Assembly (NCBI RefSeq): GCF_027625995.1
Contig: NZ_CP115396.1
Location: 1,674,001 to 1,738,000 of the forward strand
Reading direction: 5' to 3'
Length of the DNA: 64,000 bases
Source: Hymenobacter yonginensis
GTDB taxonomy: Bacteria; Bacteroidota; Bacteroidia; Cytophagales; Hymenobacteraceae
The notes under the pieces were generated by a model that worked only from the letters and a program-made list of their open reading frames with translations, was not told the DNA's origin and did not search any database. The stretch's first letter is position 1, and every line of letters begins with the position of its first letter. A program made the translations under genes and the position numbers. Positions 11,138-26,637 of the stretch are shown here, in pieces.

Positions 11138-11183
11138 GGGCGTGCGGGTTCTATAAAATCGTTATTCTTTTTTTCGCTCAGGC

Positions 11184-11213
11184 TTGAAAATCTAATTTTA
11201 GCCCCTAGTTTTG
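11184..11213 (+). promoter_or_regulatory. Bacteroidota-type promoter of tRNA-Thr
   Basis: TTG at 11184-11186 and TAGTTTTG at 11206-11213 are 19 bases apart, matching the known TTG-N19-TAnnTTTG promoter of this phylum. The tRNA begins 12 bases after the second box. Confidence 0.75.
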
Positions 11214-11224
11214 CACCACAATTC

Positions 11225-11297
<73 letters not shown>

Positions 11298-11311
11298 CTA
11301 AGACAAATTAA

Positions 11312-11347
11312 CCCCTTGCAAATCAATGATTTGCAAGGGTTTTTTTC
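11312..11347 (+). terminator. Terminator after tRNA-Thr
   Basis: CCCTTGCAAATCA pairs with TGATTTGCAAGGG and is followed by seven T. It starts about 15 bases after the tRNA end. Confidence 0.85.
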
Positions 11348-11545
11348 TTGGTGTGCCCGTCGGTGTGCCTCTTTGCAGGTTTTTGAGGTTATCCAGCGGG
11401 CAGATTGCCTGTTTCTGGAATTGGCCCTCTCCTATTGTGATAGCCTTAAAACGGCCAGTGTGCGGCCACCCAGATCTGGCGAGCTTATCGCACTTTCCCC
11501 AACTGGCTCAGGTTAGGTGCTGAAACAGGCAATACTTTTCCGCTC

Positions 11546-11839
11546 ATGAGTGCCCCCCTCTTTCACCCCGGTCAGGAGGTCGTCTGCATCAACGACGACT
11601 TCACGATGCTGCTGGTACAGAACCCCAATATCCAGACGCCCAAGCGCGGGCCGATCTACACCGTGCGCGACATCTACGACACGCACAACGGCTTCGGTAT
11701 CACGCTGGCCGAAATTAATAATGCCGCCGTGGCACCTGGCTTTCCAGAGGCCAACTTCCACGAATCACGTTTTGCGCTGGTGCCTCCACTGGAGGAAATC
11801 AGTATCGCGGAAGCCATTGAGGAGGCAGTACTGGTATAG
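11546..11839 (+). CDS. Small unknown protein, phage/island type
   Basis: The 97-residue protein has the pattern GQEVVCINDDF, then GPIYTVRDI, then LAEINNAAVAPG and FHESRFALV. I recall this pattern from short proteins of Bacteroidota prophages and mobile islands, where it probably forms a small beta-barrel (SH3-like) fold; no function is known to me. The ATG at 11546 directly precedes the conserved part. It is the first gene after tRNA-Thr and fits an island that inserted there. Confidence 0.6.
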   Translation: MSAPLFHPGQEVVCINDDFTMLLVQNPNIQTPKRGPIYTVRDIYDTHNGFGITLAEINNAAVAPGFPEANFHESRFALVPPLEEISIAEAIEEAVLV

Positions 11840-11922
11840 GCAATCCAGAAAATAAGTACTGACCAATGCAATATCTGTGGGCGTTTGAGAGTCTATAGTA
11901 CTTGTACTGTCAAACTTATTAT

Positions 11923-12207
11923 ATGGAAACCTTACAAGCAGAACTATTGCCCCCGAAGCGATATGACTTTGATGAAGGACAACTTCAAGTCTCTCTACTA
12001 TCTCCTAACGGTCTGTCCCAGATACGCATCGAGGTACTAGCTCCGGTTGATCACCAAGACTCTACAGCTGCTATGCGGGTAGACGAAGACTATCCGGATC
12101 CACAAACAGCACACCGACGGTATCATGCCTTCTCGGGAGCCGATGCAGATTACTGGATGGGTAACTTATACTTGCTGCATATGGAGATGCAGCCTGATGT
12201 AAAATAA
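11923..12207 (+). CDS. Unknown 94-residue protein
   Basis: I do not recognise this protein. It begins METLQAELLPPKRYDFD and ends DYWMGNLYLLHMEMQ. It has no signal peptide or membrane segment. Its GC content is clearly lower than that of flanking genes, which suggests recent transfer. I took the ATG at 11923 rather than an upstream frame start because the sequence before it reads like leader DNA. A strong terminator follows at once. Confidence 0.55.
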   Translation: METLQAELLPPKRYDFDEGQLQVSLLSPNGLSQIRIEVLAPVDHQDSTAAMRVDEDYPDPQTAHRRYHAFSGADADYWMGNLYLLHMEMQPDVK

Positions 12208-12208
12208 G

Positions 12209-12243
12209 AAAAGCCCCGAACCTGCAGAAGGTCGGGGCTTTTT
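12209..12243 (+). terminator. Terminator after the 94-residue gene
   Basis: AAAAGCCCCG and CGGGGCTTTT flank a short loop that extends the stem by three more pairs. A T-run follows. Confidence 0.85.
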
Positions 12244-12367
12244 CGTTGCAGTAGGTGGACCGTTGCCGGACACACACCTAGAAACCGGGTCGATGGCGCA
12301 AAACTAGAAGATTTTTCCTGTTGAGCTTCTCCTACTTTCTGCTCTCGCGTTATAGGATCGTAACAGA

Positions 12368-13135
12368 CTAGTGTTGAACCACGAATTTCTTTCCGATTTG
12401 CGTACCCGCTAGACCGCCTACCTGATACGTGTATACACCACTAGGTAAATCACGGGCCTGTAGCAGCAGATGATCAAAACTGCCGTCTACTGTAAAGCGG
12501 CGTACTGCACGCCCGGCCGGGTCAAGCACGACCAGCTCCGCCGTCTCATTGCGGCTTAGTTTATACGGCAGCTGAATGGCTTCGGCTGTCGGGTTGGGAT
12601 AAGGGCCAGCCAACGGATCCGCAGCGCGGGCAGCTGTTTTCAGGGGTGTGTAAGTCCCGGGAAGTGCATAGACCTTGGTTACCGTTTTTTGATTGCGTTC
12701 AACGTACGCGAGCAGCTTGGCACCAGTAGGCAGGGCGTAGGGCTCGGCGTAACTGCAGGAGTCGACCAAGAGGACTGTGGAACCCGTTTCATCCAGTACA
12801 CGCAGGTAGCTCACAGAGTTACCCGCCGACACCTCTGCCCGGTAGGTAAACGCCACTTCCACACCGGCCGTGCTGTTAAACAGCCGGTCACTCACATTCA
12901 GGACATCGTACAGCTCGCTGCCGTTCGGGGCGCCCGTGGCCAACTGCCGGTAAATGGAATGGTTCGCATTGTAGATACGTACCTGGTTGGTCGTTCTATT
13001 AAGACCCGCATACTTAATGTCGCCCGTTGACAGTTTAAACGGAGTTACGTTCTCGGCATACGTGTGCTCAAGTGTGATTTGCGCATGGGCTGCCAACGAA
13101 GCCAGCAATAGGGAAAGCGTAAACAACTGTTTCAT
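12368..13135 (-). CDS. Secreted protein with a type IX secretion C-terminal domain
   Basis: The 255-residue protein starts with a signal peptide (MKQLFTLSLLLASLAAHAQ). Its C-terminal 80 residues form a T9SS type A sorting domain: a PNPTAEAIQLPYKL start, then ELVVLDPAGRAVRRF, then DLPSGVYTYQV and a basic end, IGKKFVVQH. It should therefore cross the outer membrane by the type IX system and be released or attached to the surface. The middle part (about residues 25-170) matches no domain I know. I chose the ATG at 13135 because it begins the signal peptide. It lies between tRNA-Thr and the prophage remnant, an unusual place for a T9SS cargo gene. Confidence 0.85.
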   Translation of the reverse strand: MKQLFTLSLLLASLAAHAQITLEHTYAENVTPFKLSTGDIKYAGLNRTTNQVRIYNANHSIYRQLATGAPNGSELYDVLNVSDRLFNSTAGVEVAFTYRAEVSAGNSVSYLRVLDETGSTVLLVDSCSYAEPYALPTGAKLLAYVERNQKTVTKVYALPGTYTPLKTAARAADPLAGPYPNPTAEAIQLPYKLSRNETAELVVLDPAGRAVRRFTVDGSFDHLLLQARDLPSGVYTYQVGGLAGTQIGKKFVVQH

Positions 13136-13260
13136 ACAGGAAGATGAAGGTAGAAAAAATTGAGGCCCGCAATATACGGGCCCCGGGCATTGCTTTATTG
13201 CCTTACGTGCTACTGTCATGGTGAAAAATAGCGCGTAAGAGGGCTGCTTTCCCTGTTGGT

Positions 13261-13809
13261 CTACGCCTTGGTAGCGTCGATAGCCTCCCGTCGGCGACGT
13301 ACTATGGCCCGCAGCCAGCCCGCGCCGGCCAGCGGCAGCGGTACCAACGAGTAGAGCAGGCCCAGCCCAGCCAGGCCGACGGCATACGGCAGCAGCGGCC
13401 GCACCCAGCTCTCGGCCGTGGTGGCCATGGGCACCTCTGCATTCCGGCCGGCGGCCACCGCCGGGCCCTTCTTGCTCTGGGCCGTTGTGACCTGGGCACC
13501 GTCTGTGGCCAGCACCACTGCGGCCTCGGGCTTATAACTTGCAACTACTTGCTTAGCAGCCGGGGCGTTGACTGCCGCCCGCCCCTGCACCAGTGGCACC
13601 GTGCGCGGCTGGGCCCGCAGGTTCTTGCGGTACTGCCGCTGCACGGCACGCGGCAGCTGGGCCACCTGCACCGGCGTGAGGGGTTTGTGTAAGGGGTCTG
13701 GAGCAGCTAAGTCAGCAGTAACCCCTGACATTGGCCTGTCATCCTGAGCAGCGCAACGAGAGCCGGCACAGCTGGCCAACAGAAGAGCGAAGACTAGGAA
13801 GGCGCGCAT
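13261..13809 (-). CDS. Prophage-region exported protein with C-terminal membrane helix
   Basis: The 182-residue product starts MRAFLVFALLLASCAGSRC, a signal peptide with a possible lipobox Cys. A long linker with the basic segment LPRAVQRQYRKNLRAQPRTV follows. Near the C-terminus there is one hydrophobic helix (LLPYAVGLAGLGLLYSLVPL), then a basic tail. Its start codon overlaps the stop of the upstream gene (TGATG), so the two are probably translationally coupled. The function is unknown; a role in lysis or the envelope is possible from topology alone. Confidence 0.6.
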   Translation of the reverse strand: MRAFLVFALLLASCAGSRCAAQDDRPMSGVTADLAAPDPLHKPLTPVQVAQLPRAVQRQYRKNLRAQPRTVPLVQGRAAVNAPAAKQVVASYKPEAAVVLATDGAQVTTAQSKKGPAVAAGRNAEVPMATTAESWVRPLLPYAVGLAGLGLLYSLVPLPLAGAGWLRAIVRRRREAIDATKA

Positions 13810-14261
13810 CAGATGATTTTGGTAAAGAGTAGAACCCCCACGGCAAACCATACCCCGCCCCCGGCTGCCAACCACCAGCGGGTGCGGCCGTCGAAGTCGA
13901 AGCGGGCAGTCGTCGTCGAGGACTGGTAGTTGAACTTGAACACAGCCCATGCCTGGCGGAAGCTCTGCTTCGAGTTGATCCAGACGCGGGTGAAGTTGTA
14001 GGCCTCGTTATGGAAGAGGCTAAACGAAAGGCAGATGCTGCCCACTTCCCAGGCCAGCCAGCCCAGCGTGTAGGGCAACGAGGCGGCGCACACCCACGCA
14101 TCGAGGGCGGCGCCCAGGCCCACCAGGATAGCCGCGGCCCGCAGCCACACCAGCACGCGGTGCTCGTTCCAGGTGAACGACTCGGCGGCCTGCCCCGCGT
14201 AGAGCAGGCCGTCACTGACGCCATTGAACACGGCGAACAGATTGTAGAGCAGCCAGAACAT
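13809..14261 (-). CDS. Prophage-region multi-pass membrane protein
   Basis: The 150-residue product begins MFWLLYNLFAVFNGVSD and has about three to four hydrophobic helices, the last near the C-terminus (WWLAAGGGVWFAVGVLLF). I do not recognise the family. The start ATG overlaps the stop of the upstream broken gene by one base (TAATG) and its own stop overlaps the next start. This shows an operon of membrane proteins, possibly for lysis or host-envelope functions. Confidence 0.6.
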   Translation of the reverse strand: MFWLLYNLFAVFNGVSDGLLYAGQAAESFTWNEHRVLVWLRAAAILVGLGAALDAWVCAASLPYTLGWLAWEVGSICLSFSLFHNEAYNFTRVWINSKQSFRQAWAVFKFNYQSSTTTARFDFDGRTRWWLAAGGGVWFAVGVLLFTKII

Positions 14262-14876
14262 TATCGGCCCAGCGGGTTGTTGGCGCGCTGGGCGGCTTCC
14301 CGCTTCAGGCGCAGCGTGTGACGGTAGGCGTCGGCGGTGGCCACGATGAGGGCAAACACAATAATACCCAGAGCCGACCAGAGCAGGGAGCTGCCGTCGC
14401 CGTGGCTGGCATTGTCGCGAAAGCCGAGCAGGGCACAGATGCCGGCGATGATAAGCGATGCGGGCTAGGGCGTTGGGAGCAGGCAGCTCAATCTCCACAG
14501 AAAACTCAGTGCGGGTGTCCGGACTGGTGCGGCCGGCTGAGGCGGGCACCACCAGCACCGGGGTGCGGGTACCATCTGCTACCTGCATGTACACCTGTGG
14601 CGAGTCGAGGAGGGTGGTCAGGGCCTCATGCTGCTGAGGGCTCAGGTTGCCAGCGCGCAGCAGCTGGCGCCGGGTGCGGCTGCGCTGCAGCACCAGGGCC
14701 GGAACACTCTCGGGCCGGAACACGCTGCCAGCTTCGGGCGTGGTGCTGGGGTCGTAGTCGCCATCGAAAAACCAGCCTTCCCAGTTGCCCAGCGGCGAAA
14801 GTCAGCGCAGGTACACGCCCCGACCGGGGCAGATGGGAATGAGTTGAATGAGCAGCGGCTGGGTGTAGACTTCCAT
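14261..14876 (-). pseudogene. Broken prophage gene: in-frame TGA plus a frameshift
   Basis: Translation starts MEVYTQPLLIQLIPICPGRG and meets TGA at 14804-14802. The same frame then continues as clear coding sequence, LSPLGNWEGWFFDGDYDP. The stop sits where a Trp fits (VYLR-W-LSPLG). Near 14440-14464 the coding sense moves to another frame, where SLIIAGICALLGF and a second membrane helix run to a stop at 14261. Joined, the pieces give about 200 residues: a soluble N-terminal domain and two C-terminal membrane segments. I recall similar N-termini in Bacteroidota phage structural proteins but cannot name the family. Confidence 0.65.
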
Positions 14877-14888
14877 GCCAGCGAAGGT

Positions 14889-14936
14889 GCGAGGCGAAAA
14901 AGGCCACTGCAACCGCAGTGGCCTTTTTCGCCTCGC
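14889..14936. terminator. 22-bp perfect hairpin, bidirectional terminator
   Basis: GCGAGGCGAAAAAGGCCACT continues two more bases into a perfect 22-bp stem with an AACC loop. An A5 and T5 tract inside the arms gives a terminator on either strand. It lies just before the broken gene starting at 14876. Confidence 0.8.
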
Positions 14937-14982
14937 AACCGGGGTAAAACGCCGCGCAAGTTGGTGAGAACTATCCCCAAGC

Positions 14983-15066
14983 TTAGACTGACAGGCGCAC
15001 CATTTCCCGCGCAATGGCCAGGCCGATGGCTTCGGGTACATCACGAATGGGAGAGGGAGCAGGCAT
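14983..15066 (-). CDS. Possible 27-residue small protein
   Basis: A short open frame encodes MPAPSPIRDVPEAIGLAIAR followed by EMVRLSV. Codon choice fits the region, and phage genomes often hold such small genes, but there is no other support. It lies in the gap between the 14889 hairpin and the gene at 15182. Confidence 0.3.
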   Translation of the reverse strand: MPAPSPIRDVPEAIGLAIAREMVRLSV

Positions 15067-15181
15067 AGGGCTAGGTCAGGCGGTGATAGGGTAAGCGGGT
15101 GCAGTTGAGCTTGTGAGGGCAGTGGCGGCGGTATATCTTGCGGCACTATTCTGATTTAGAATTGCATTCAACAATCCAGAT

Positions 15182-15364
15182 ATGACAACTGAAATTCTAC
15201 AAGTGCAGGGCGTAGCCGTGCGGGTTACCTATTCTGATACCGCCCACAAGGAGCGGCTGATTATCAAGGCGAACGAGCTGTTGAGCGCCGGCCACAGTTG
15301 GTGGGATTCTGAGGACCAGGACGGCGGGTTTTTCTTTGACCGCGCCGCCCCGCCTCAATCCTAA
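15182..15364 (+). CDS. Small unknown protein on the plus strand of the prophage region
   Basis: The 60-residue product (MTTEILQVQGVAVRVTYSD, ending DGGFFFDRAAPPQS) has no signal or membrane segment. It runs against the prophage genes and its 3' end overlaps the tail gene by four bases. I do not recognise it. The composition looks like that of a real soluble protein, so it may be an accessory (moron-like) gene. Confidence 0.45.
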   Translation: MTTEILQVQGVAVRVTYSDTAHKERLIIKANELLSAGHSWWDSEDQDGGFFFDRAAPPQS

Positions 15365-17844
15365 GCCAGCGTCACTAGGCTGGCGGCACCGATGTAGATA
15401 TCCGCTACCTGCGTATCGGCATAGAGCCAACTCATGATCTGGTAAAGCGTGGCTCCGTTGGCGGCGCGGGCGTAGTTGTCGAACAGGATGATGTCCTGCG
15501 CCCGCGTTGCCCCAAGTTTGACAAGCTGCGTTTTCGTCTGCGTGAACACGATACGCACCCGGTCGCCAACGCCTGCCCGCATGTCATACCCTGGGTTGTT
15601 GCCGGGCGTGTACAGGTTGACTCCGAAGCCGTTCACGCCGTTGTTGCCGGTCGATACCTTGACGTAGGACGCGAAGGTCAGATCGTCCAGGTCGTTGCTG
15701 TAGACCGGCACGCTGTCCTTGACGCCAAACAGGTAGGTGTTCAGCCCCTGTTGCGCACTGCCGACGGCATCCGTCAGCTGCCACTCGATGTAGCCGATGA
15801 GCGGGTTGGCCGTGGAGGGGCCGATGGCAAACCGTGTTTTGGCGTAGCGTTGGATGCCGTTGGCCCCGGCCGTGGCCGTCATGGTGTTGGATGGGTTGAT
15901 GGCGATGCCAACCACGTCGGCGGTGAACTCCTGCTTTTTGCGCGTTAGGTAGGGGTAATCGGGGTCGGCGTCGCTAGTGGCCGGCGGGGTGCCGCCGCCT
16001 GTCGGGGTGCAGACCAGCAGGGCTGTGGCGTCGGCGTTGGCTTGCGCCTTGGATACCGTGGAAGCGGCCTGCTTTGGGGTGCCCGTGGTGTTCGCCCCGC
16101 ACGACTGCACGGCGCTGATATACCATCGGGTCGGCTGCTGGCCGTTGAGGGCTTTCACCTTTTCTTCGCCATGTTTGAGGTGAGAGAAGGCATCCCAATG
16201 GTGTAGGTTGTCGTGCAGGTTGTAGCCGATGGCGTCTACTGCCAAGCACTTGGGGCGGCTATCAGCAAACGCCTGAATATTGGCGCGGGCCTGGGTGTTG
16301 TCGTGGCTGTCCGTCTGCGTCTGCGTAAGCGTTACCGACTCCCGGCCACCATCGGGCAAGCCACAATCCGCTTTCAGGTCGGCCCAAATCTGCGCCAACT
16401 CCGGCCCCCAGTTAGGCAGGTCGGCCCATGTTTCGCCCTGGTTGCAGTCCCACACGACCTCTGCGCTCGTCAGCGGCAAGCCTTGCGCCAACCACCATTC
16501 CTTCAGCAGCAGAATCTGCCGCTTGATTTCGTTGTAAGCTGAATTGTCAAATCCGCCACCGTAAACTGGCGCGCCCTGCTTGGTGAATTTGGTGATGTCG
16601 GTTCCGTCCAACGAATAGCGAGCAGTGGCCAGCATCCCCGGCCCAGCGTTTTCCCATGCCTGCGAGTATGGCACTACAGCTCCAAACCAATTAGGATGCC
16701 CGGTTGCCGTAGCGCCACTGCTGTAGTCATTCACGCCCATCTGCAGCTTCTGCACGGCCGAGCCATTCGCTACCATGCTACGCTGGAACTCCCGCGTGAT
16801 GGCCGGTGTGATGCCGGCCAGGTGCCCGCCGGCCAGGAAGGGCGCTTTCAATCCCTGGCTGTGCTCGTTGCTCTGGCCGGGGTAGCTGATGCGGAACTGG
16901 TTCACACTGCCAGTAGGCGGCGCGGTGGCCGCCTGCGTAGTACCGGAGAACTGTGCGCCCTGGGGCGAGTCGGCATAGGTAGTGCCGTTGCCCAGCGCCT
17001 GCCATTTGTAGTAGTAGGTAGTCGAGGCGCTCAGGCCGGTATCGGCGTAGGATGGCGAAGAGAGCGTACCACCCACCTGCACGAAGGCCCCGCCGCTGGC
17101 AGGGCTGCGGAACAGCTTATAGCCGGTGGCATTAGCCACCGAGGAAGCGGCCACGTTGAGGGCGGTGCTACTGGTGGGCGTGGCTAGTGGGTCGGCCGGG
17201 GCGGCTAACGTAGTAGCGGCAGCGGCCGTCACCGTCAGGTTGCGCACCGGCGAAATCTTGGTGGCGTTTACCGCGTCGGTGACGGTGCTGGCAATGTCGT
17301 AGCTGCCGGCGGCCGAAGGTGTCCAGTTGCCGGTAGCCGCACTACCGATGCTGACCGTAGCACCGGTGGCCGTGTTGGTGGCCGTCACAGCATAGCTGTA
17401 GGGCGCCGTGCCACCGCTGGCACCGGCCGTGTAGGCGACAGCCGTGCCAGCCGCTACCGAGGCAGCCGAAATAGTGAGGGTCGCCGCAAGAGCTGAGGGC
17501 GTGGGCGTCGTTGCTCCCTCAGCTTTCCGAAAAACCAGAATCCACTGCCCGTCGATGTACTTGTACATGTCGTAGGCGGCCAGGCTCTTGAGGTGGTACC
17601 AGAGAAACCCCTCCTGCCCGCCCGTGGTTGGGCCTGGCGCGTAGCTCTCCGAGTACACCTGCGTGCCGTCGATGCCGTCCTCGCCATCCACGTAGTCGGT
17701 GCCCTTGACCGGTGTGGTGCCGGCCGCGCCCTTTTTGGCCAGCCGGAACACCCAGGCCCCGGCTACCTTCTGATACTCGTAGCCGCTGGCCGTGTCGGTG
17801 TACACGTCGTTGTCGACACCGAGCGCAGCGCCAGGTACGCCCAC
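15361..17844 (-). CDS. Tail-fibre-like protein with an SGNH/sialate-esterase-type domain
   Basis: The 827-residue product is modular. Residues 1-110 are a fibre-type start (GVDNDVYTDTASGYEYQK, then a GAWVF motif). Residues about 120-210 resemble an Ig-like fold rich in Thr and Ala, and 215-305 a fibronectin-III-like domain. From about 315 an SGNH hydrolase-type domain has SYPGQSNEHSQG, CNQGETWADLP and HDNLHHWDAFSH, matching the GQSN, QGE and His blocks of sialate O-acetylesterases. The last 180 residues look like a beta-rich binding domain. It probably deacetylates surface polysaccharide during adsorption. GTG at 17844 is taken as start; the frame is open upstream only to a TAG at 17857. Confidence 0.72.
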   Translation of the reverse strand: MGVPGAALGVDNDVYTDTASGYEYQKVAGAWVFRLAKKGAAGTTPVKGTDYVDGEDGIDGTQVYSESYAPGPTTGGQEGFLWYHLKSLAAYDMYKYIDGQWILVFRKAEGATTPTPSALAATLTISAASVAAGTAVAYTAGASGGTAPYSYAVTATNTATGATVSIGSAATGNWTPSAAGSYDIASTVTDAVNATKISPVRNLTVTAAAATTLAAPADPLATPTSSTALNVAASSVANATGYKLFRSPASGGAFVQVGGTLSSPSYADTGLSASTTYYYKWQALGNGTTYADSPQGAQFSGTTQAATAPPTGSVNQFRISYPGQSNEHSQGLKAPFLAGGHLAGITPAITREFQRSMVANGSAVQKLQMGVNDYSSGATATGHPNWFGAVVPYSQAWENAGPGMLATARYSLDGTDITKFTKQGAPVYGGGFDNSAYNEIKRQILLLKEWWLAQGLPLTSAEVVWDCNQGETWADLPNWGPELAQIWADLKADCGLPDGGRESVTLTQTQTDSHDNTQARANIQAFADSRPKCLAVDAIGYNLHDNLHHWDAFSHLKHGEEKVKALNGQQPTRWYISAVQSCGANTTGTPKQAASTVSKAQANADATALLVCTPTGGGTPPATSDADPDYPYLTRKKQEFTADVVGIAINPSNTMTATAGANGIQRYAKTRFAIGPSTANPLIGYIEWQLTDAVGSAQQGLNTYLFGVKDSVPVYSNDLDDLTFASYVKVSTGNNGVNGFGVNLYTPGNNPGYDMRAGVGDRVRIVFTQTKTQLVKLGATRAQDIILFDNYARAANGATLYQIMSWLYADTQVADIYIGAASLVTLA

Positions 17845-17856
17845 GCCGTAGCGCGT

Positions 17857-18024
17857 CTACCCTCTCTGGCCAATGCTGACTACTATTTCATCGAGCTGGC
17901 GCACGAGCAGGTCGGCCAGCGCGGGCCCCGGCAGGTTGGCTCCGGACACCAGGGTGGCCAGAATTTCAGCGCGAAGCTGGGTAAGCGCAGTGACAACCTG
18001 CGCGGAAGTGGTGGATTGAGCCAT
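17857..18024 (-). CDS. Small prophage protein, or 5' part of the tail-fibre gene cut off by TAG
   Basis: The 55-residue frame reads MAQSTTSAQVVTALTQLRAE and ends VVSIGQRG before TAG at 17859-17857. Its ATG overlaps the stop of the upstream gene (TAATG). The tail-fibre frame is the same frame and resumes directly after the TAG as TRYGVGVPGAALG. So this may be a separate short gene, or the true N-terminus of the fibre truncated by a stop. Two neighbours show what look like Trp-to-stop changes, which keeps the second option open. Confidence 0.5.
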   Translation of the reverse strand: MAQSTTSAQVVTALTQLRAEILATLVSGANLPGPALADLLVRQLDEIVVSIGQRG

Positions 18025-19419
18025 TACTTGAAATCAGTATCGGTAAGGTCGGAAATCAGGAAGTCGTGGATGCCGGCCGGCGGCGGCGGTGCGACCACCA
18101 CGGGGCAACTGCCGGGGTAGCTGCGGTCGGTATCGGTGAGCGTGAGCACCAGCTGGGTGGCGCAGGGCAGTGGGTCGGGCGGCAAACTCAGGCGGCACAC
18201 GCCGGCGGGCAGCGAGGCCGGCAGCGGCACGCTGCGGATCTCCAACTCACTGCCGTAGCCGTCGAGGTAGCGCCACTCGGCGTACCAGGTAGCGCCCGCG
18301 GCCCGCTCAGGCAGCCACACGGCCAGCTCCAGCGGCAGGCCCACGGCCTGCACCAGCTGGCCCGAGGGGAAGGCGGAGAGCGGCAGGGCGGGCCGGGCGA
18401 CATAGGCCACATAGGCGGTAGCGGGCAACTCGGGCGGCACGGCACTGAGCAGCGCATAATGCGCGCCACGGGCCTGCTGCCACTCGCCGGTCCCGGTGGC
18501 GTCCACTTCCCGCCAGCGGTAAGTAAAGGACAGCGTGGCCTGCCCGTCGTAGCGGGCCCGGCGGCCGGTGGGATAGCGCATTTCCGGTACCAGCTCGGCG
18601 TGCAGGGCCTGGGCCACGTCCACCAGCTCCCGCTGGCGGCGCACGGTTTTGCGCAGCCGCGCGAACGGGGCCTCAGCATCCGGCCGGCTCAGCTCCAGCT
18701 CGACATGCAGGCCGGGCCGGGGTTGGCTACCGGCCGTGAACAGGTCCGACACGGGCGTAGCCAGCAGCGCCGGGCGCGGCACCCGGCCACCCACGGCGTA
18801 GTAGGCCGGGGCTGGCAATGGTTCAGGCTCAGGTTCAGGCTCCGGAGCGGGCGCTGTCACTTCTACCGTCTGCTCTACCCGGCAACCGCGGGCATCTTCC
18901 ACCCGCAGCGTGTGCGTGCCGTAGGTGGTGAGCAGCAGCAGCGGCACGCCGGGCAGCGTGCCGGCTGGCACGCTGTTAAGCACGAACCCGGCGGTATCGA
19001 GTAGCGTGGCCTTCACCCAGGCGGCGGTAGTGGTGGGCGTGAATTCGATGCTGGGCAGCGGGGTGCCAGGCAGCACCTGCACGCCTGCTACAGCCAGGTC
19101 GCACGTGCCGGGCTCGGCCGTGCCGCCCCCGCCCGTGGGCGCGCCGCAGCTGATAGTATAGCTGCGCTCGACGGTGTTTTTCGTCGGTACCGGTGATGGT
19201 GTAGGTGTCATCCGGGGCCGGCGAGAAGCGGAAGGTGGTCGAGGACCCGGCGTAGAAATCGGCGAAGACCTGCTCACCCTGGCTGTTGAGCACGGCCACG
19301 CTCAGCGTCACCGGCTCGGTGCCGAAGTTGCCGGTTTTGCGCAGCGTGATGCGCAGCTCGGCGCCCGGGCCGGGGCTGAGGCAGGTATGCTGAATACCGA
19401 TCTGAGGAAGTCCGGCCAT
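18024..19419 (-). pseudogene. Prophage structural-type gene with a frameshift in an A-run
   Basis: The first part (MAGLPQIGIQHTCLSPGPG to TYTITGTDE) is in one frame. After a run of five A on the coding strand (19177-19181) coding continues in the +1 frame as NTVERSYTISCGAPTGG and runs to 18024. Removing one A joins them into about 465 residues. The product is beta-rich, with an APEPEPEPEPEPLPAP linker near the middle separating two halves. It could be a baseplate or fibre-associated protein; I do not recognise the family. The upstream gene ends right before its ATG. Confidence 0.6.
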
Positions 19420-19896
19420 TTAGTAGGCAGTTGAAGAGGTGAAATCCGGGAACAGGTCCGAGCGCAGGGCGCGGCGCGTCTCAGCCGTCAGCGCCAGGCG
19501 CAGCCGGCCGCGGCTGGCCTGCAGCACGTCGCGCAGCGTGCCCGTAGGCTTGCCGAAGCGCGGGTCTTCGCCCCGGAACAGGCGGGTGCCCCGGCGCAGA
19601 ATGCTGGTGGCCACGGCCCAGGGGCTGGCCGAAGAGCCGCGGGCCGCCAGCTAGGCCGTGATATCGGCCACCATGGCCCGGCCGGGCTTGGCCTGTGGGT
19701 CGGCGGCGGGGCCACTACCGGTTTCCAGGGCGCCGATGTGGGCCGGGCCGTAGAGGCGGGCCAGCTCCGGGACTGACTCGTTGCGTAGCGCGGCAATGGT
19801 GCGGCCGGTGGCCCGCTGACCCTTGGCCGTGATGGCCTGGCCCAGCTCGGCCTGGGTGCGGTTGATTTCGGTGTTGAGCAGCTGGGCCAGATTCAT
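19420..19896 (-). pseudogene. Prophage head-tail/tail-completion-like gene with in-frame TAG
   Basis: The frame begins MNLAQLLNTEINRTQAELGQ, reaches TAG at 19653-19651 after 81 codons, and continues in the same frame as LAARGSSASPWAVATSILRR to a natural stop at 19420. The broken place reads ITA-stop-LAARG. In comparable phage proteins a Trp fits this position (I-x-x-W-h-x-x-R-G), so TGG to TAG is likely. The full length would be 158 residues. Family assignment (HK97-gp10-like) is tentative and rests on size, location and the AVATSILRRGTRLFRG segment. Confidence 0.6.
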
Positions 19897-19898
19897 GC

Positions 19899-20339
19899 TT
19901 AGCAGAGGCTGGCCCGCTCGGCGGGCGTGATGTCGAGCTGTAGCACCACGCCGTCGAGGTTGGCGTCGAAGGCGTTGTAGCTGCTGACGATGTTGCGGGC
20001 CACCACCTTGGCAATGGCTGGGTGCTTCTCCAGCGCCGAGAGCAGCGCGAAGGCCTCGGTGAGCAGCGCATCCATGCGGGGCAGGCGCGCGGCCGCGTCA
20101 TCGGTGAGCTGCGAGTAGGCCAGCACGCTGATGGTAGCCTGAAACGTGACCGTGGTGCGCATGCCGTACTTGTTGACGGAAGGCACCACCAGCATCTTAT
20201 CCTCCACCAGCACCACCCGGCTGTCGGGCGTGAGCTGATCGAGGGTGATGTTGGCCTCTTCCTTCTCGCCGTGGGCGAAGTGGCAGCCAGGGATGGTGGC
20301 GAGCGCGCAGGCGCGGAGCGTGGGGATGGGGTACTGCAT
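19899..20339 (-). CDS. Prophage protein of unknown function, possibly connector or tail terminator
   Basis: The 146-residue frame is intact and starts MQYPIPTLRACALATIPG. It contains DQLTPDSRVVLVEDKMLVVP and ends LQLDITPAERASLC, a mixed alpha/beta protein without membrane segments. Only two bases separate it from the next gene downstream. Placement between a gp10-like gene and a chaperone-like gene suggests a neck or tail-end protein, but I see no diagnostic motif. Confidence 0.6.
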   Translation of the reverse strand: MQYPIPTLRACALATIPGCHFAHGEKEEANITLDQLTPDSRVVLVEDKMLVVPSVNKYGMRTTVTFQATISVLAYSQLTDDAAARLPRMDALLTEAFALLSALEKHPAIAKVVARNIVSSYNAFDANLDGVVLQLDITPAERASLC

Positions 20340-20359
20340 CGGAGTGCTATCTTGGGGGC

Positions 20360-20581
20360 ATGGTTATCATCATGCGTGTGTTGTTGGTCCTGTTTCTTAT
20401 TCTTTTGCTGCTGGCAGGCCTATCCTATGGTGTATATGAGGTCTTTAAATGGGATTTGCCACTAACCTTGGTGCTGGCTTTTTTCTGGTTTTGGCCGATG
20501 ATTTGGTTGCCCCTCTTGCTGTTGCTGATCGTCGCATGCCTCTGGAATCTAGGGGTGTGGGCGAGAGAGCAGTTGCAGTAG
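20360..20581 (+). CDS. Small double-helix membrane protein (accessory gene)
   Basis: The product of up to 73 residues has two long hydrophobic stretches: LLVLFLILLLLAGLSYGVY and, after a short loop, LVLAFFWFWPMIWLPLLLLL. It lies on the plus strand, opposite to the prophage genes, in a gap between two of them, and has lower GC. The start may be the ATG at 20360 or at 20372. I do not recognise it; it may be a small accessory gene. Confidence 0.5.
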   Translation: MVIIMRVLLVLFLILLLLAGLSYGVYEVFKWDLPLTLVLAFFWFWPMIWLPLLLLLIVACLWNLGVWAREQLQ

Positions 20582-20591
20582 ATGTGTAGCA

Positions 20592-21385
20592 CTAGCCCTG
20601 TCGTTTCTGTTGCCGCTCCTGCTGCACGTGCACCTGGTGGCGGTAGTAGGCTTTGTGGTTTTCCAGCTCAATCATCGTGTTGACCTCGGGCCAGCTGAGC
20701 TGGTAGAAGTAGTTCCAGCGGGTCTTATCGCCGCCGGCCAGCGCGTCCACCACGGCCAGCGTGTCCCACTCCAGCGAGAACTGCCCGACGCCTGCGGCCC
20801 GCTCAGCTTGGCTCAGCGGAATGCGCTTCAGGCGGGCGGCGTGGGCCCGGCGGATGCGGTCGAACTCGGCAAAAAAAAATCCGTGAGCGGCAGCGCTTCC
20901 CGCAGCTTCACCGCTCCGCAGAGCTGCTCCACCTCGGCCACCTGATTTGTGTCGTAGGCCGTGCCGTGGTAGGCGGGCTGCAGGATGGTGGCCAGCACCT
21001 TCAGCCGCAGCTGGGCCACGTCGCCGCCCAGCTCCTGCATCAGGGCCCCGATATCGGCGGCCTGCCCGAAGCTGATTTCTTCCAGGCTGTCGAGCACTGG
21101 TACTTCCACCTCGCCCAGCTGGAGCACCGTGGGGCGCTGGTAGCTTTCGCGGGTGGGCATGGGCTCGGAGAGAAACAGGCCGGCGGCCAGTGCCTGCTGC
21201 AGCTGCCGCGGCTGCAGGCTCAGCAACTCCGGAGCGGAGCAGTCGAGCAGCACGGCCAGGCAGTCCTGCAGGGTGGCCTGCTCACCGAGGTCGGCCAGCC
21301 GGATGGCCTGGGCCAGGGTGACGCTGCCCCAGTCGGTGGGCAGGGCGGCCAGGTGCGAGGCGAAAGAGATGGGCAGAACGGGCAT
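20592..21385 (-). CDS. Tail-assembly-chaperone-like gene spanning a T9 frameshift site
   Basis: Frame one starts MPVLPISFASHLAALPTDWG and would end at 20828. On the coding strand a run of nine T (20879-20871) follows the codons for LPLTD. A -1 slip there gives DFFFAEFDRIRRAHAARLKR, and the second frame runs on to 20592 (YYRHQVHVQQERQQKRQG). Read through, the product is about 264 residues. Tail chaperones of many phages are made from such a slip on a homopolymer. A lost T in a decaying gene would look the same. The helical sequence has no diagnostic motif I can name. Confidence 0.5.
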
Positions 21386-21389
21386 AGGC

Positions 21390-22586
21390 TTAGCGGCGGC
21401 GACTCGGGCCAAAGGATTGGTGGACGGTGATGGGGGCGGCAACGGGCTTGCCGATGCAGTTCAGGGCCACGTAGCGCACGGGGTCGATGCAGTGGTTAAA
21501 AGCATCCACCGGCTCATTGGTGGGCTTGCCGGTGAGCCGGTCTACCCGGTACTTGTAGTTGCTGAGCTCCTTGCGCAGGTTGATCGAGCGGCGCGTGACG
21601 TTGAGCGGGTAGCGCTTGAGAATGTCGAGGCCGTTGCTCACCGAGTCGGGGCCCTTCAGGGCGCCTTCGATTAGGCGGAAGCCCAGGCGCCGCAGCTCCT
21701 CGATACTCTTGGGCTCGGCCGAGTCGGCCACCAGGCGCTTGAGCGTGGCCGCTGGGTCTTCTGCCAGCAGGCGCTGGTGAATGTCGGGGTTGGTCAGGCC
21801 CTCGGCGTAGAGCACCTCATCCAGCCACAGCTCGCCCTGCTGCAGATACACGTCGATGGCGGTGGTCGGGTCGTTGGTAAAGCCGAAGTCCATGCCACGG
21901 CCGATGAACTTGGCCAGCGGGGGCACTGCCTCTACCACGGTCCAGTTGCGCAGCACCAGGCCTTCGATCTTGCCGGTCATGCCGCGGGCGTACACCTTCC
22001 ACAGTTCGAGGTCCTTCTGCTTCAGGCCTTCGATCTTGGCCCGCTGCTTCTCCATCAGGAACGGGTTGTGGCGGTGGTCACTGATGAGCAGCTCTACCCC
22101 GGGCCGGCCGATGATGGACTCGTGCACATAGAACTCAGCATTGGGGTTGTAGTCGATAAAGACCTGCTCCTTGGTGCGTAGCTCCAGCTCGTCATAGATG
22201 GGCTTGACCACGCCCTGGGCCTCGTTGACGAACAGGAAGTCCCGCTTGCCACTTTTGGCGTCCTGGCTGTCCTCGTAACTCTTGAACTCCATCACGCAGC
22301 CGTTGTGGAACTCGAAAATCCGCTCCGACTTGTTGTAGGACTTGATCAGGCTCTGCAGCTCGGGGCTGTTGTTGTAGATGTCGAGCGCATCACGCAGGGC
22401 CCCGGCCTTCAGGTTGGGAATATCCTGGCCGGCCACGGTGCACACCTTGCGCTTGAGCTCCGAGAGCTTGGTGAAGAGCACCTGCAGGATGCTGTAGGTT
22501 TTGCCGCTGCTGGTGCCGCCCTGGTTGACGACAGTATCGGCCGCGCTGTGGTAGTTGTCAACGAAGAGGCGGGAGCTTTTAAACAT
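21390..22586 (-). CDS. terL: Phage terminase large subunit
   Basis: The 398-residue protein is the DNA-packaging motor with nuclease activity. The Walker A variant is NQGGTSSGKTYSIL (about residue 25) and Walker B is DFLFVNEAQ, followed by a C-terminal RNase-H-like nuclease region with FGFTNDPTTAID and LVADSAEPKSIEEL, typical of Terminase_3/6C. I chose the ATG at 22586 (MFKSSRLFVDNYH). It overlaps the end of the small terminase by eight bases. The frame is intact, unlike its neighbours. Confidence 0.9.
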   Translation of the reverse strand: MFKSSRLFVDNYHSAADTVVNQGGTSSGKTYSILQVLFTKLSELKRKVCTVAGQDIPNLKAGALRDALDIYNNSPELQSLIKSYNKSERIFEFHNGCVMEFKSYEDSQDAKSGKRDFLFVNEAQGVVKPIYDELELRTKEQVFIDYNPNAEFYVHESIIGRPGVELLISDHRHNPFLMEKQRAKIEGLKQKDLELWKVYARGMTGKIEGLVLRNWTVVEAVPPLAKFIGRGMDFGFTNDPTTAIDVYLQQGELWLDEVLYAEGLTNPDIHQRLLAEDPAATLKRLVADSAEPKSIEELRRLGFRLIEGALKGPDSVSNGLDILKRYPLNVTRRSINLRKELSNYKYRVDRLTGKPTNEPVDAFNHCIDPVRYVALNCIGKPVAAPITVHQSFGPSRRR

Positions 22587-23357
22587 CGTCCACCTCCTTC
22601 TCCGAACGGGCCAGCGGCGGGCCGGTGGTGATGATTTCCACCTTCGTGTTGAGCACGGGCACCGTGGCGGCCTGCGTGTTGTCCTTCTCGAACACGCCTC
22701 GGATGCGGCCCATGTCACGCAGTGCCGCGGCCGAGTCGTAGAGCTCCACCGCAATACCGAACTCGGTAGGCTTCCAGGACTTGATGAGGCCCAGCTCCTG
22801 CGCCTGAGCCAAGGCCACCAGGTCTAACTCGGCCCGATCCTGCAACACCAGCGGGCCTTCCACGTAGACCATGGCATCGGGGCCGAAGCGCAGCACTTCC
22901 AGCTCCAGCTCCATTTCCCGCTTGCGCAGCTTGGTGAGCATGGCACGAAAAGCAGCCGCCTCCTTTTTGGGTAGCGGCCGGATTTTTTCACCAATAAGTT
23001 CTATTTCCTCCTTCACCTGGGCCAGTACCACGTTGGCGTAGGCGGCTACCCGTTGCCGTACGGGCACCTGAATAATGCGAACGAAGCCATTCAGGCGAGT
23101 TTCGGCAATGTTGCTGATGAGCTTGGTGAGCTTGCCAGCGGATAGGCTCAGGTCATCGAAGCGCGCGTCGATAGCCGCCTTTATCTCAGGTTTCTTCAGG
23201 TTCCGCTCCCGATGGAGTAGGCCGACTCTTCCGAGTAGCCGGCCCGAATTGCCGCCTGAGTGCAATTCCAGTCCACACAGTACTCCTCGACGAAGCGCTG
23301 CTGCTTCGCGGTGAGCTTTTTGGCGGTGGTGGCTGGGGCTTCGGGTTGAACTGACAT
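22579..23357 (-). pseudogene. Phage terminase small subunit, frameshifted
   Basis: The N-terminal part, MSVQPEAPATTAKKLTAKQQ then FVEEYCVDWNCTQAAIRAGY, is a textbook terminase small-subunit helix-turn-helix. At about 23200-23212 the frame ends as YSIGSGT-stop, while coding continues one frame over as RNLKKPEIKAAIDARFDDLS. One missing A in AGC-GAG-AAC explains it (expected YSIGSENLKKPEI). The rest is about 200 residues of helical sequence with the pattern KKEAAAFRAMLTKLRKREME and a C-terminus overlapping terL. A product with DNA-binding ability only might be made. Confidence 0.75.
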
Positions 23358-23402
23358 GCCACGAAACTCCCACCATCCGCCTGCGCCTACAATAGCCACC
23401 CG

Positions 23403-23439
23403 CCCAAAACGCCGCGAACCTACCCCAAAACGTCGCGCA
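23403..23439. repeat. Two CCCAAAACG(C/T)CGCG direct repeats upstream of the small terminase
   Basis: CCCAAAACGCCGCGAA (23403-23418) and CCCAAAACGTCGCGCA (23424-23439) are spaced 21 bases, two helical turns, in the 92-base gap before the terminase genes. A third copy of the core, AAAACGCCGCGCAA, lies at 14946-14959 at the other side of the remnant. They could be a packaging or repressor site. Confidence 0.5.
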
Positions 23440-23449
23440 GTTTCGGGGC

Positions 23450-23749
23450 CTACTGCTCGACGTGGGCTAGCATGCGCCGCAGCTGCACGGTGCTCACGGC
23501 CAGCTCCCGGGTGGTTTCGCGGCGCGCCTTGGTCTGGGTCCAACTGGGGTGGGCACTCAGTAGCTCCGCCACCCGGCGCTGGGCGCGCATGCACTCACCG
23601 ATGGGGTGCGCCTTGGGCTTGGGTGGCTCGGGGGGCAGGCTGATGTAGTCGAGCACCTGCCGACGCTCGACGGGGTCGAGCTGGGCCAGGGCTTAGCGCA
23701 GGACTTCAGCATGGGGCTGCCAGGGACGAAGGGAAAGTGCATTGAGCAT
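23450..23749 (-). pseudogene. Small prophage gene with an in-frame TAA
   Basis: The frame starts MLNALSLRPWQPHAEVLR, meets TAA at 23695-23693 (codon 19) and continues as ALAQLDPVERRQVLDYISLP to a stop at 23450. The CAA or CAG codon for Gln would restore it (LRQALAQLD). The full product is 99 residues with a C-terminal helical segment that could bind DNA (TRELAVSTVQLRRMLAHVEQ). It precedes the terminase genes, a common place for a small regulator. A later internal start (ATG at 23581) could still give a short product. Confidence 0.5.
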
Positions 23750-23995: not shown

Positions 23996-24084
23996 AGCGG
24001 GATAAGGCGGATGACGGTCAGTTGGTACTCCTTGCCGGCGTCCTGCACCTGGTTGTAGGCGCGCTGGCTCCTATCTTGGCGGGC

Positions 24085-24438
24085 ATGAAAAAACTATTCT
24101 ATATCGTGGGCTGCCTGCTGGTGCTAGGTAGCTCGCCTGCTTTCGCTGTGGCAGATGATCCGGCGGTGATTATCGTGCGGGTTCATGAATCCTTAAAGGG
24201 TGCTCATTTGGTCATTGAGCGGGGTGCTGAAAAGCCCGAGGTAATTGATTTTGTAGCTGGTAACTCCGCCAGCGAAAATGCAAGTGCGGCCAAAGGGTAT
24301 CACAGCGTCATTTCCAAACTCTACCAGCAAGGCTATGTGCTGCAGAGCACAATTACGGGAGCTAGTCTGCAGGGTGGAACGTCCGCAGCTACTTACAGCC
24401 TGAGCACACTAGTCTTCATCAAGGGCCCGAAGCTGTAA
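24085..24438 (+). CDS. Exported protein of unknown function
   Basis: The 117-residue product has a clear signal peptide (MKKLFYIVGCLLVLGSSPAF then AVA) and a small periplasmic domain ending STLVFIKGPKL. The mature part reads as alternating strands and one helix (SAAKGYHSVISKLYQQGYVL). I chose the ATG at 24085 because it begins the signal peptide. It overlaps the 3' end of the convergent nuclease-like gene by 20 bases. No function can be assigned. Confidence 0.65.
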   Translation: MKKLFYIVGCLLVLGSSPAFAVADDPAVIIVRVHESLKGAHLVIERGAEKPEVIDFVAGNSASENASAAKGYHSVISKLYQQGYVLQSTITGASLQGGTSAATYSLSTLVFIKGPKL

Positions 24439-24733
24439 CGATGCGCAGGGCTTCCTCTATCGTTTCCACGATGTGGTAGGGGGAGCCCCGCCATTTGGCC
24501 CGGAACTCCTCCTCCCCCTCCGTGAGCTTTCGTTTGCTGGGTGGCTGGGCCGGGTCCTTCACCTCCAAGATGAACGTGCGGCCGCGGTAGCCGACGAGCA
24601 GATCGAAGCAGTTCTTGAGCTGGTGGCAGTGGCGCGGGCACACCGAGTAGCCGGTGTGCCCGCCCGGTGTGCCCGTTTGGCGGCAACTCGCTACCGGTGG
24701 GCACCGAAACCGGGCTGAGCCGGTGCAGTACAA
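24419..24733 (-). CDS. VRR-NUC-like nuclease, N-terminus possibly eroded
   Basis: Residues about 40-104 match the core of small phage-type PD-(D/E)XK nucleases: FDLLVGYRGRTFILEVKDP contains the Asp, Glu and Lys of the motif, followed by LTEGEEEFRAKWRGSPYHIV and a final helix. The usual first helix of the family (an E-x-x-I-V-x-x-L start) cannot be read clearly. The first 35 residues are Cys- and Pro-rich and unlike the family, so the 5' end may be damaged. In phages such proteins act on DNA during replication or packaging. Confidence 0.6.
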   Translation of the reverse strand: MYCTGSARFRCPPVASCRQTGTPGGHTGYSVCPRHCHQLKNCFDLLVGYRGRTFILEVKDPAQPPSKRKLTEGEEEFRAKWRGSPYHIVETIEEALRIVTASGP

Positions 24734-24793
24734 TCCGGTTCTGCGTGTAGGATACAGAGAATAACGATACGCCCCGGTAAAGTACTGATTTCA

Positions 24794-24804
24794 ACAGGAG
24801 GCTC
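24794..24804 (+). repeat. 11-base direct repeat of the tRNA-Thr 3' end (possible att core)
   Basis: ACAGGAGGCTC here is identical to 11288-11298, the last bases of tRNA-Thr plus one. It lies about 150 bases before the integrase start. Integrases of this type often recombine at tRNA 3' ends. The match is short and the integrase is outside the interval it would bound, so the assignment is tentative. Confidence 0.35.
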
Positions 24805-24957
24805 ACATATTCACTACCGGAATGCCCGGAAACTTGCTCCTCGCGCTGCGAGAGCTGGTTTCCGGTTTTTTTGCGTCTGGGGGTACTCGGTTCTCTGGGC
24901 GCGAATCTTTCAACTCTGGGTGGGAGTCACGCCCCCCCTTACGCCCCCCATACCGGT

Positions 24958-26277
24958 ATGGTGACGCAATTCACGCTTCGCACCGACAAAAAGGACAGCA
25001 AGGGCCGGTGCCCCGTGCATTTGGTGGTTTACTTCGACGGCTTGCGCCTGCGCTGCGCCACCGGCGAGAAGTGTAAACCGGCCGACTGGAACACCGAGCG
25101 GCAACAGTTCCGGCGCTCCTATCCACTGGCCGAGGACGCCAACGCGTTGCTGGCCCGCATGGCCACCGACGTGCTGGCCTGGTGGCGCGCCGTACGCGCT
25201 GCCGGCGAAACCCCTACCGTAGCCGGCCTGAAAAATGCCCTGAGGCCGGCCCCGGCTCCCACGCCCGTTCCCGAGCGGCTGGTGGTAGCGGAAATCATGG
25301 AATTTCGCGAGGTCATGCGCCGGCGCGGGCTGATGTGGAACACGCTGCGCCACTACCTGGTCACGGCCAACTGGCTGCGCGACTTCGAGCAGTGGGCCAA
25401 CCGTCGGCTAACGGTGGCTGGGTATGACCTGGCCACCCACGACCTGGTGCTGGCTTACCTGCGCCACGAGCGGGCCCTTAGCCCCAATTCTCTCTACACC
25501 GTGGGCAAAGACCTGCGGCGGCTCTTCGGCTACCTGCGCGATGAACGGGGCCTGCCGGTGAGCGTGGAGCCCCGTAAGCTGCGCGTGGCCTGCCAGGATA
25601 CGGAGAAAGTCTACCTCACCGGGCCGGAGCTGGAGCGGCTGCGCGTGACGGTGCTGCCCACCACGCTGGCGCCCGTGCGGGACGTGTTTCTGTTCTGCTG
25701 CTACACCGGCCTGCGCTACTCCGACGTGCTGCAGCTGCACGGCGGCAACGTGGAGGCCCTGCCCGACGGCTCGGGCCGGGTGCTGCGTCTGACCCAGACC
25801 AAAACCCGCACCCGGGTGAGCGTCTACCTGACAGCCGCCGCCTCTGCACTGCTGGAAAAATACGCCGGCCCCGAGCGCGAGGGCCCGGATGCCCGCCTGT
25901 TGCCGGTGTACCAGAACCAGGTGATGAACCGCTACCTCAAGCGTATCTGTCAGCTGGCCAGCGTCACGGCCGGAGTCGAAGTGGTGGAAGTGCGGGCCGG
26001 GCAGGTGATCAAGTCCATGCGGCCCAAGCATGAGCTGATTACGATGCACACGGCCCGCCACACCTTCGCCACCCAGAGCCTGCTGCGCGGCATGCCGGTG
26101 GAGGTGCTACAGAAGATCCTGGGCCACGCCAGCATCAAGACCACGCTGGTGTACGCCAAAATCGTGGAGGATTTCCAGCACCAGACCATGCGCCGCATCT
26201 GGGATGACGCGCCCACGCCGGCACCGGTAGCGGTAGCGGCCGACACCATCTGCACCGTGGAATCGTCGGCCGCCTGA
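24958..26277 (+). CDS. Tyrosine recombinase/integrase, Bacteroidota type
   Basis: The 439-residue enzyme probably integrates and excises the island. It has an N-terminal arm-binding domain (MVTQFTLRTDKKDSKGRCPV to about residue 60), a SAM-like core-binding domain (about 120-225) and a catalytic domain. The active residues are visible: Arg in TGLRYSDVL, Lys in TQTKTRTRV, HTARHTFATQ (His-x-x-Arg), the later His in LGHASIKTT, and the nucleophile Tyr in LVYAKIVED. I chose the ATG at 24958 since it begins the arm domain; upstream codons read as leader DNA. It is followed by an unusually long palindrome. Confidence 0.93.
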   Translation: MVTQFTLRTDKKDSKGRCPVHLVVYFDGLRLRCATGEKCKPADWNTERQQFRRSYPLAEDANALLARMATDVLAWWRAVRAAGETPTVAGLKNALRPAPAPTPVPERLVVAEIMEFREVMRRRGLMWNTLRHYLVTANWLRDFEQWANRRLTVAGYDLATHDLVLAYLRHERALSPNSLYTVGKDLRRLFGYLRDERGLPVSVEPRKLRVACQDTEKVYLTGPELERLRVTVLPTTLAPVRDVFLFCCYTGLRYSDVLQLHGGNVEALPDGSGRVLRLTQTKTRTRVSVYLTAAASALLEKYAGPEREGPDARLLPVYQNQVMNRYLKRICQLASVTAGVEVVEVRAGQVIKSMRPKHELITMHTARHTFATQSLLRGMPVEVLQKILGHASIKTTLVYAKIVEDFQHQTMRRIWDDAPTPAPVAVAADTICTVESSAA

Positions 26278-26280
26278 TTC

Positions 26281-26331
26281 CTATCACACGACACCCCGAC
26301 TCACTCAATGGGTCGGGGTGTCGTGTGATAG
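26281..26331. terminator. Perfect 20-bp inverted repeat after the integrase
   Basis: CTATCACACGACACCCCGAC at 26281-26300 is repeated in perfect reverse complement at 26312-26331 across an 11-base loop. It begins 4 bases after the integrase stop. No T-run follows, so it may be a terminator without a tail, or a structure or end of the mobile element. Confidence 0.65.
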
Positions 26332-26337
26332 GATCCC

Positions 26338-26577: not shown

Positions 26578-26637
26578 TAGGTAAGCAAGTGGCAGAGGAG
26601 TTCGAAGATATAATGTACTGGTGATCGGGCACAGTAA

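Follow-up and report, generated by a model that had tools for sequence, protein, structure and literature searches.

Several described systems make two proteins from one gene by joining two reading frames. Phage lambda produces a short protein, gpG, and a longer one, gpGT, with a C-terminal extension from the −1 frame, out of one tail-module gene (excerpts of PMC5009743). In slippage of the Shigella mxiE type, a single nucleotide added at a U-run fuses two overlapping frames (excerpts of PMC1088944), and Thermus dnaX gives two products from one gene with a nine-base run (excerpts of PMC1088944 and PMC5009743). Slippage in phage genes has been proposed before, as for a Campylobacter phage methyltransferase gene with a poly-A tract (excerpts of PMC2853527). 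Here we describe a prophage remnant in a 64,000-nucleotide stretch of Hymenobacter yonginensis DNA (contig NZ_CP115396.1, positions 1,674,001 to 1,738,000; this whole stretch is the window, and coordinates count from its first letter), in which the gene following the large terminase (TerL) gene changes frame at a run of nine T's (T9).

Like lambda gpG/gpGT, this frameshift gene lies in a tail module and would give a short product and one extended from the −1 frame; it differs in having no profile match, in using a T9 run as its site, and in that about 11 kb of other genes precede the tape-measure gene in the related prophage of H. metallicola. The likeness to mxiE is in the U-run and the one added nucleotide, here in a phage tail-module gene known from sequence alone. 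The templated run of dnaX yields the long product according to the excerpts cited, whereas the templated T9 of the window yields the short one; two relatives with T10 and one fused open reading frame (ORF), L010 and L193, are the dnaX-like way round. Taken together, we consider it quite probable that the region is a decaying prophage with a deletion, six gene-breaking lesions, and one built-in recoding site, at which transcriptional slippage would be the likeliest mechanism. The original prediction, made from the letters and translated ORFs, had counted T9 among eight lesions and had asked whether decay or recoding was at work. Both apply, decay to six lesions and the loss of a gene block, and recoding to 20871-20879 only.

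The frame junction after the large terminase gene

Three minus-strand features make up the frameshift gene:

20828..21442, minus strand: frameshift gene, zero-frame ORF
20871..20879, minus strand: T9 frameshift site, conserved, no lesion
20592..20879, minus strand: −1-frame extension of the frameshift gene, 95 codons, 62 to 94% identity to five relatives

Coding sense passes from the zero frame to the −1 frame within GATTTTTTTTTG at 20871-20879, and the same string with the same switch is present in L001, L002, L003, L005, and L053. The prophages of H. sediminis (L001; L140 lies on another contig of the same genome), H. metallicola 9PBR-1 (L002/L138 and L003/L139), and H. fodinae (L005) share the gene order from TerL into the tail genes along with this site. 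In L053, the −1 frame is blocked by a stop immediately ahead of T9 and opens exactly at the run, as it also does in L189, L165, and L192. The zero-frame domain is 38 to 70% identical to relatives, against the higher values listed above for the −1 domain, whose ratio of nonsynonymous to synonymous substitution rates (dN/dS) is 0.10 to 0.45. The window contains no second T9 or A9 run (0.14 expected). Judged by comparison with these relatives, 20871-20879 is a conserved frameshift site and not a lesion. Homologues split at the same point, which the original prediction had named as a refutation, are found for this one site.

A wider set of 130 loci was fetched by TerL, and 105 of them were scanned downstream of TerL for −1 overlaps with any XXXYYY heptamer, and the longest-run candidate was retained; the 25 loci outside the scan were L030 to L050 and four contigs ending near TerL. 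A candidate was present in 60 of the 105, many of these loci being near-copies of one another; 59 of the 60 were T9, and the remaining one (L052) looked spurious. Nine of the other 46 loci (L052 included) end less than 700 bases from TerL. Among the 46, T9 occurs within 2.5 kb in L068, L082, L084, L090, and L128, plus L075 (one of the nine), T10 occurs in L010, and the remaining 31 have neither. Profiles of the two parts recognized the gene in all six extra T9 loci and in L010, with the first part only in L075 and the first part split over two frames in L128. At least one part was recognized within the 31 in L004, L051, L006, L009, L052, and L093, the last of which leaves its contig before the site; neither profile matched in the other 25.

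When the scan took in all loci, also those obtained through −1-domain homology, 110 −1 junctions were found at T-runs of at least six: 101 at T9, one at T7, eight at T6, and none at T8 or T10. All T-runs of the same loci, both strands, amounted to 687 T7, 193 T8, 153 T9 (junctions included), and 8 T10. The T9 set comprises 82 distinct contexts, which form 46, 34, 20, and 8 clusters at 90, 70, 50, and 30% identity and span G+C fractions of 0.30 to 0.67; the loci are related, and the T9 counts are thus not independent. In the genus of H. metallicola, a −1-domain match was found in 11 of 120 genomes. A search of open-licence papers on tail chaperone frameshifting, transcriptional slippage in phage or Bacteroidetes, and Hymenobacter prophages gave, among the matches listed, none on the T9 site in titles or abstract openings.

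Polymerase or ribosome at T9

Reading of the gene in the zero frame would give a short protein, and slippage at T9 would add the C-terminal domain from the −1 frame; the domain is conserved, and its expression is presumed. In the mechanism that we favor, RNA polymerase would slip on T9 and insert an extra U in part of the transcripts, fusing the frames. Nine A or T is a run length at which bacterial slippage is efficient in vivo, and the RNA-DNA hybrid measures 9 to 10 bp (excerpts of PMC5009743). A genome survey with nine A or T as its criterion returned seven conserved cases, of which insertion sequences account for six and Staphylococcus for one (excerpts of PMC1088944). The window site is a run of nine at which two overlapping frames would be joined, and homologues keep it.

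Transcriptional slippage appears somewhat likelier than ribosomal slippage because the length of the run is conserved and its register is not. The zero-frame register is NNT TTT TTT TTG in 37 contexts and NTT TTT TTT TNN in 45, and a third register is seen in L029, while the bases flanking T9 are never T, before or after, in 82 of 82 contexts. On a tree of the zero-frame part, with the run excluded, parsimony gives five register changes; well-supported branches force at least one, and many branches are long and uncertain. A length that is kept while the register slides is not required by a ribosomal heptamer alone but is required by a polymerase that depends on run length. As a control, TTT TTT was counted in Phe-Phe pairs. 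It encodes 20 of 68 pairs in GC-rich loci, 17 of the 20 being in Phe-Phe-Leu (FFL) and presumably representing the T9 site itself. The codon pair is frequent in AT-rich loci (145 of 319), and the control thus bears on GC-rich loci only.

The serious alternative, to which we give a little less than an even chance, is ordinary −1 ribosomal frameshifting of the kind seen in tail-assembly chaperone genes, at T TTT TTT or T TTT TTG, with the length of the run fixed by codon constraints in two frames and by ancestry. Several points speak for it or against a polymerase mechanism. T9 always includes a T TTT TTT heptamer that ribosomes could use, and it does so in both registers; the fixed length may in part reflect the codon needs of both frames and shared ancestry; many of the loci were fetched by −1-domain homology and all are related; and tail chaperones are the classic −1 case (excerpts of PMC5009743). 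In addition, some homologues have a different site in place of T9, in part of ribosomal type, at about the same position in the protein. A −1 shift occurs there in L004 (and its copy L051) with T5, in L195 with an A AAT TTT-type heptamer, and in L196 with T7, and from a reading of its frames L006 seemingly shifts as well; the matches of these non-T9 shifters are weak to moderate (E 3e-4 to 1e-7). On this comparison the two-frame design extends beyond T9, and T9 is not required for it. Ribosomal slippage probably serves in some lineages, and these homologues weigh most against a reading that is transcriptional only. What speaks against the ribosome at T9 itself is that the T's outside the heptamer are kept in both registers with a flanking base that is never T, that the −1 junctions include one T7 but no T8 or T10, and that no conserved simple RNA structure was found downstream of T9 among 16 sequences, in a search that covered simple hairpins, not pseudoknots.

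Other homologues depart from T9 in different ways. T8 is present in L191 of H. wooponensis and in genome G023 (L194); in both, the frames are broken at other places too, which fits decayed copies. T10 goes with a single fused frame in L193 (266 residues) and L010 (248 residues). We judge it evenly balanced whether RNA polymerase slippage on a run of exactly T9, in any register, gives rise to two forms of a tail-module protein in a large group of tailed Bacteroidota phages, with sister lineages of ribosomal type or T10-fused.

Our best guess is that the gene probably has a role like that of the G/GT tail-assembly chaperone pair, because of its position in the tail module and its two-product design. 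At the sequence level, the gene agrees with G/GT in its conserved −1 frameshift close to the 3' end, by which a C-terminal extension would be added. Two results run counter to this assignment: the gene adjoins TerL, at the distance from the tape measure given above for H. metallicola, and in profiles of chaperone families the fused homologue L193 matched no PHROG family, the others giving only weak matches to families of unknown function. The zero-frame ORF of the window had no Pfam match. A tblastn search with five frameshift-gene queries against the 50,697 phage records of INPHARED gave no match; searching with a profile built on the zero-frame part gave a weak match to a single INPHARED record, L204 (E 9e-4). 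Profile comparison with the gene of about 200 amino acids after TerL in a Bacteroides and a Parabacteroides phage yielded nothing significant. On account of the adjacency and profile results, the gene is not filed as a G/GT member.

If T9 is a site of transcriptional slippage, tail genes of environmental Bacteroidota phages would use slippage of the polymerase and not of the ribosome. A DNA phage would then rely in its assembly on programmed transcriptional slippage, where lambda-like phages are known for a ribosomal frameshift. One natural gene family would hold T9, T10-fused, and ribosomal-type sites side by side, which would bear on what sets product ratios in tail assembly. In prophages, a programmed frameshift can be miscalled as a damaged gene, and the two can be told apart by comparison with relatives.

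Six broken genes and a deletion junction

The remaining features of the remnant are as follows; several gene names are assigned by position or reading only:

24871..26277, plus strand: tyrosine recombinase/integrase, 468 amino acids, open (PHROG phrog_1, E 1e-36; Pfam Phage_integrase)
24419..24733, minus strand: small nuclease-like phage gene (label from our reading), remnant; about 65 C-terminal codons are kept in L004, L006, and L053
23450..23758, minus strand: small gene preceding that of the small terminase, interrupted by TAA at 23693-23695; continuous homologues of 117 (L001) and 111 (L005) amino acids
22579..23404, minus strand: small terminase subunit, frame disrupted near 23200-23212; its PHROG match, to the terminase small subunit, is weak (E 0.02)
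21393..22586, minus strand: TerL, 398 amino acids, open (PHROG terminase large subunit, E 5e-28)
19899..20339, minus strand: 146-residue tail-module gene, open; homologues in L001, L002, L003, L005, and L053
19420..19896, minus strand: tail-completion-like gene, broken by TAG at 19651-19653; continuous homologues of 158 to 161 amino acids in L001, L002, and L005
18024..19419, minus strand: tail gene (463 and 471 amino acids in relatives; "tail" by position), frame broken at 19177-19181; continuous homologues in L005 and L001
15361..18024, minus strand: tail-fibre-like gene, broken by TAG at 17857-17859; L001, L002, L003, and L005 are continuous there
14457..14879, minus strand: tail-module gene, broken by TGA at 14802-14804; homology stops at 14457, the end of the gene in relatives
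14440..14464, minus strand: deletion junction at about 14456, where the tail-module gene end is fused to the holin-like gene; relative to two H. metallicola prophages, 13 to 15 kb are missing
14261..14456, minus strand: two-helix holin-like gene, remaining part, its stop overlapping the next start (named by position and hydrophobicity only; no sequence match)
13809..14261, minus strand: small membrane-protein gene, open; 58% and 53% identity to L138 and L140
13261..13809, minus strand: lipoprotein-like gene (by reading); one short DNA match at the corresponding place of L140, and a 185-amino-acid ORF at the same position in L138

On the minus strand, the order is thus small gene, small terminase, TerL, frameshift gene, 146-residue gene, tail-completion-like gene, tail gene, fibre-like gene, tail-module gene, holin-like remnant, and small membrane-protein gene. 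The nearest TerL relatives are from Hymenobacter, that of H. sediminis being 93% identical. We read the region as a decaying prophage of a siphophage-like Bacteroidota family in a Hymenobacter-like genome, because virion genes of its relatives have been lost and six frames are broken where relatives are continuous.

The stops and frame changes of the original prediction are all present on the minus strand: TGA at 14802-14804, TAG at 17857-17859 and 19651-19653, and TAA at 23693-23695, with open frame changes near 14440-14464, 19177-19181, 20871-20879, and 23200-23212. Six of these eight are genuine lesions on comparison with relatives, one in each of six different genes; the others are the deletion junction at 14440-14464 and the T9 site. 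The pieces of each gene were compared separately with two to four relatives, and those flanking each lesion were 33 to 90% identical to one continuous homologue. In all cases shown, the Hymenobacter relatives are continuous both where the window has stops (23693, 19651, 17857, and 14802) and where its frame breaks (near 23200 and 19177); uninterrupted small terminases, for example, have 289 (L005), 273 (L001), and 307 (L002) amino acids. The stop at 17857-17859, offered only as possible, is a real break, with four relatives continuous there. The short ORF before it and the start of the 827-amino-acid ORF after it share one frame in four of four relatives, which contradicts the view that the tail fibre gene stays open; TerL and the 146-residue gene are open as claimed. 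The fibre-like gene had no family match in Pfam and PHROG scans, its name being a reading only. In L003, the fibre frame is continuous at the 17857 site and stops later, at residue 394. Similarity continues past that residue in another frame within L003:15775-19000, the second H. metallicola prophage, and the gene may be broken there too.

An exact 30-mer of the 14802 lesion had no match in IMG/VR, so that an independent copy was not found. The claim that lesions are confined to the prophage was weakly tested by a Pfam scan of 20 long ORFs elsewhere in the window (integrase included), which had been chosen because they were open. Matches were obtained for 14 of the 20, some nearly end to end (among these GyrA, HisIE, AlgH-like, and DUF1015), and the six unmatched ORFs are uninformative.

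A point frameshift at 14440-14464 was rejected, since homology ends at 14457, where the gene ends in L001, L002, and L003. From the end of this tail-module gene to the small membrane-protein gene there are 196 bases in the window, against about 15.6 kb in H. metallicola and about 13.5 kb in the second H. metallicola prophage. The intervening H. metallicola ORFs encode a 688-amino-acid protein, a 958-amino-acid tape measure, a head-maturation protease, capsid-like and portal proteins, and a lysin-like protein (tape measure, protease, and portal by PHROG matches, capsid-like and lysin-like by position or reading only); the lysin-like gene is followed by a short two-helix gene and then by the small membrane-protein gene. 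None of the intervening ORFs of L138 matched the window by tblastn at E 0.001, so that the tape measure, protease, portal, and capsid-like genes retained in L138 are absent here. The comparison identifies 14440-14464 as a deletion junction, one large deletion having taken the tape measure through the head genes to the lysin-like gene. As it stands, the element would be unable to make virions by itself and would be a dead remnant.

The original prediction expected elevated dN/dS under decay. Ratios were computed by the Nei-Gojobori method for eight gene segments covering four of the six broken genes, the 463-amino-acid-type gene and the fibre-like gene being left out. They were 0.08 to 0.58 between the window and relatives, compared with 0.07 to 0.55 for the relatives among themselves, and those of the broken genes lay in the range of relatives; the absence of a rise in these four genes counts against decay. 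It fits decay that is recent or undetectable by dN/dS and is also compatible with error. A raised ratio is expected only after long decay and was not treated as defining a decayed prophage.

That all lesions, the stops included, are sequencing or assembly errors is very unlikely: two of the six are frame changes, one at a short A-run, and the dN/dS of the measured genes looks normal, but the other four are in-frame stops that homopolymer slips would not produce, the damage affects six genes within about 9 kb and spares long genes elsewhere (GyrA, for one, is full-length), and a 15-kb block is gone as well. Retention of the broken genes through recoding or a reassigned stop codon has almost no chance of being right, for although the pieces on both sides are still similar to homologues and dN/dS is unremarkable where measured, the four stops are of three kinds, relatives are in one frame at all six lesion sites, and essential structural genes are missing. 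Reassignment was rejected largely as the original prediction had argued, since the stops are of three kinds and relatives read on at all four. The cluster is mostly ordinary prophage decay, and the item of note is T9, which is not a lesion.

Further observations on the remnant and its surroundings

The N-terminal part and start of the gene at 24419-24733 (minus strand) are unrecognizable in frame by eye, a possible further lesion that the original prediction missed. No exact 14-mer is shared between 10801-13400 and 24001-28500, which were compared for attachment-site repeats. L176:3143-3766, at the place of the tail-completion-like gene in a distant relative, gave a weak PHROG tail-completion match (E 0.04). 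The 252-base gap at 20340-20591, between the frameshift gene and the 146-residue gene, carries a small hydrophobic ORF (20360-20581, plus strand); L002 has almost no gap there.

Phage genomes usually run from head genes to tail genes. The order in L138 of H. metallicola is unlike this, with protease and portal genes located after the tape measure; in L138 and in the Bacteroides/Parabacteroides phages L200 and L201, tail-module genes come directly after TerL. An element of about 85 bases at 23355-23439 (minus strand) has repeated GCGACGTTTTG-like units and a conserved GGATGGTTGGAGTTTCGTGGTATG-like end. Copies are found at L003:8821-8909 and 19162-19246, L002:9113-9206 and 17905-17989, and L138:2673-2757. 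It precedes the small terminase gene and recurs in relatives before the last tail-module gene, and it is possibly a late-gene control element. Beyond the remnant, stretches of the window between 27 and 39 kb are 85 to 90% identical to H. wooponensis.

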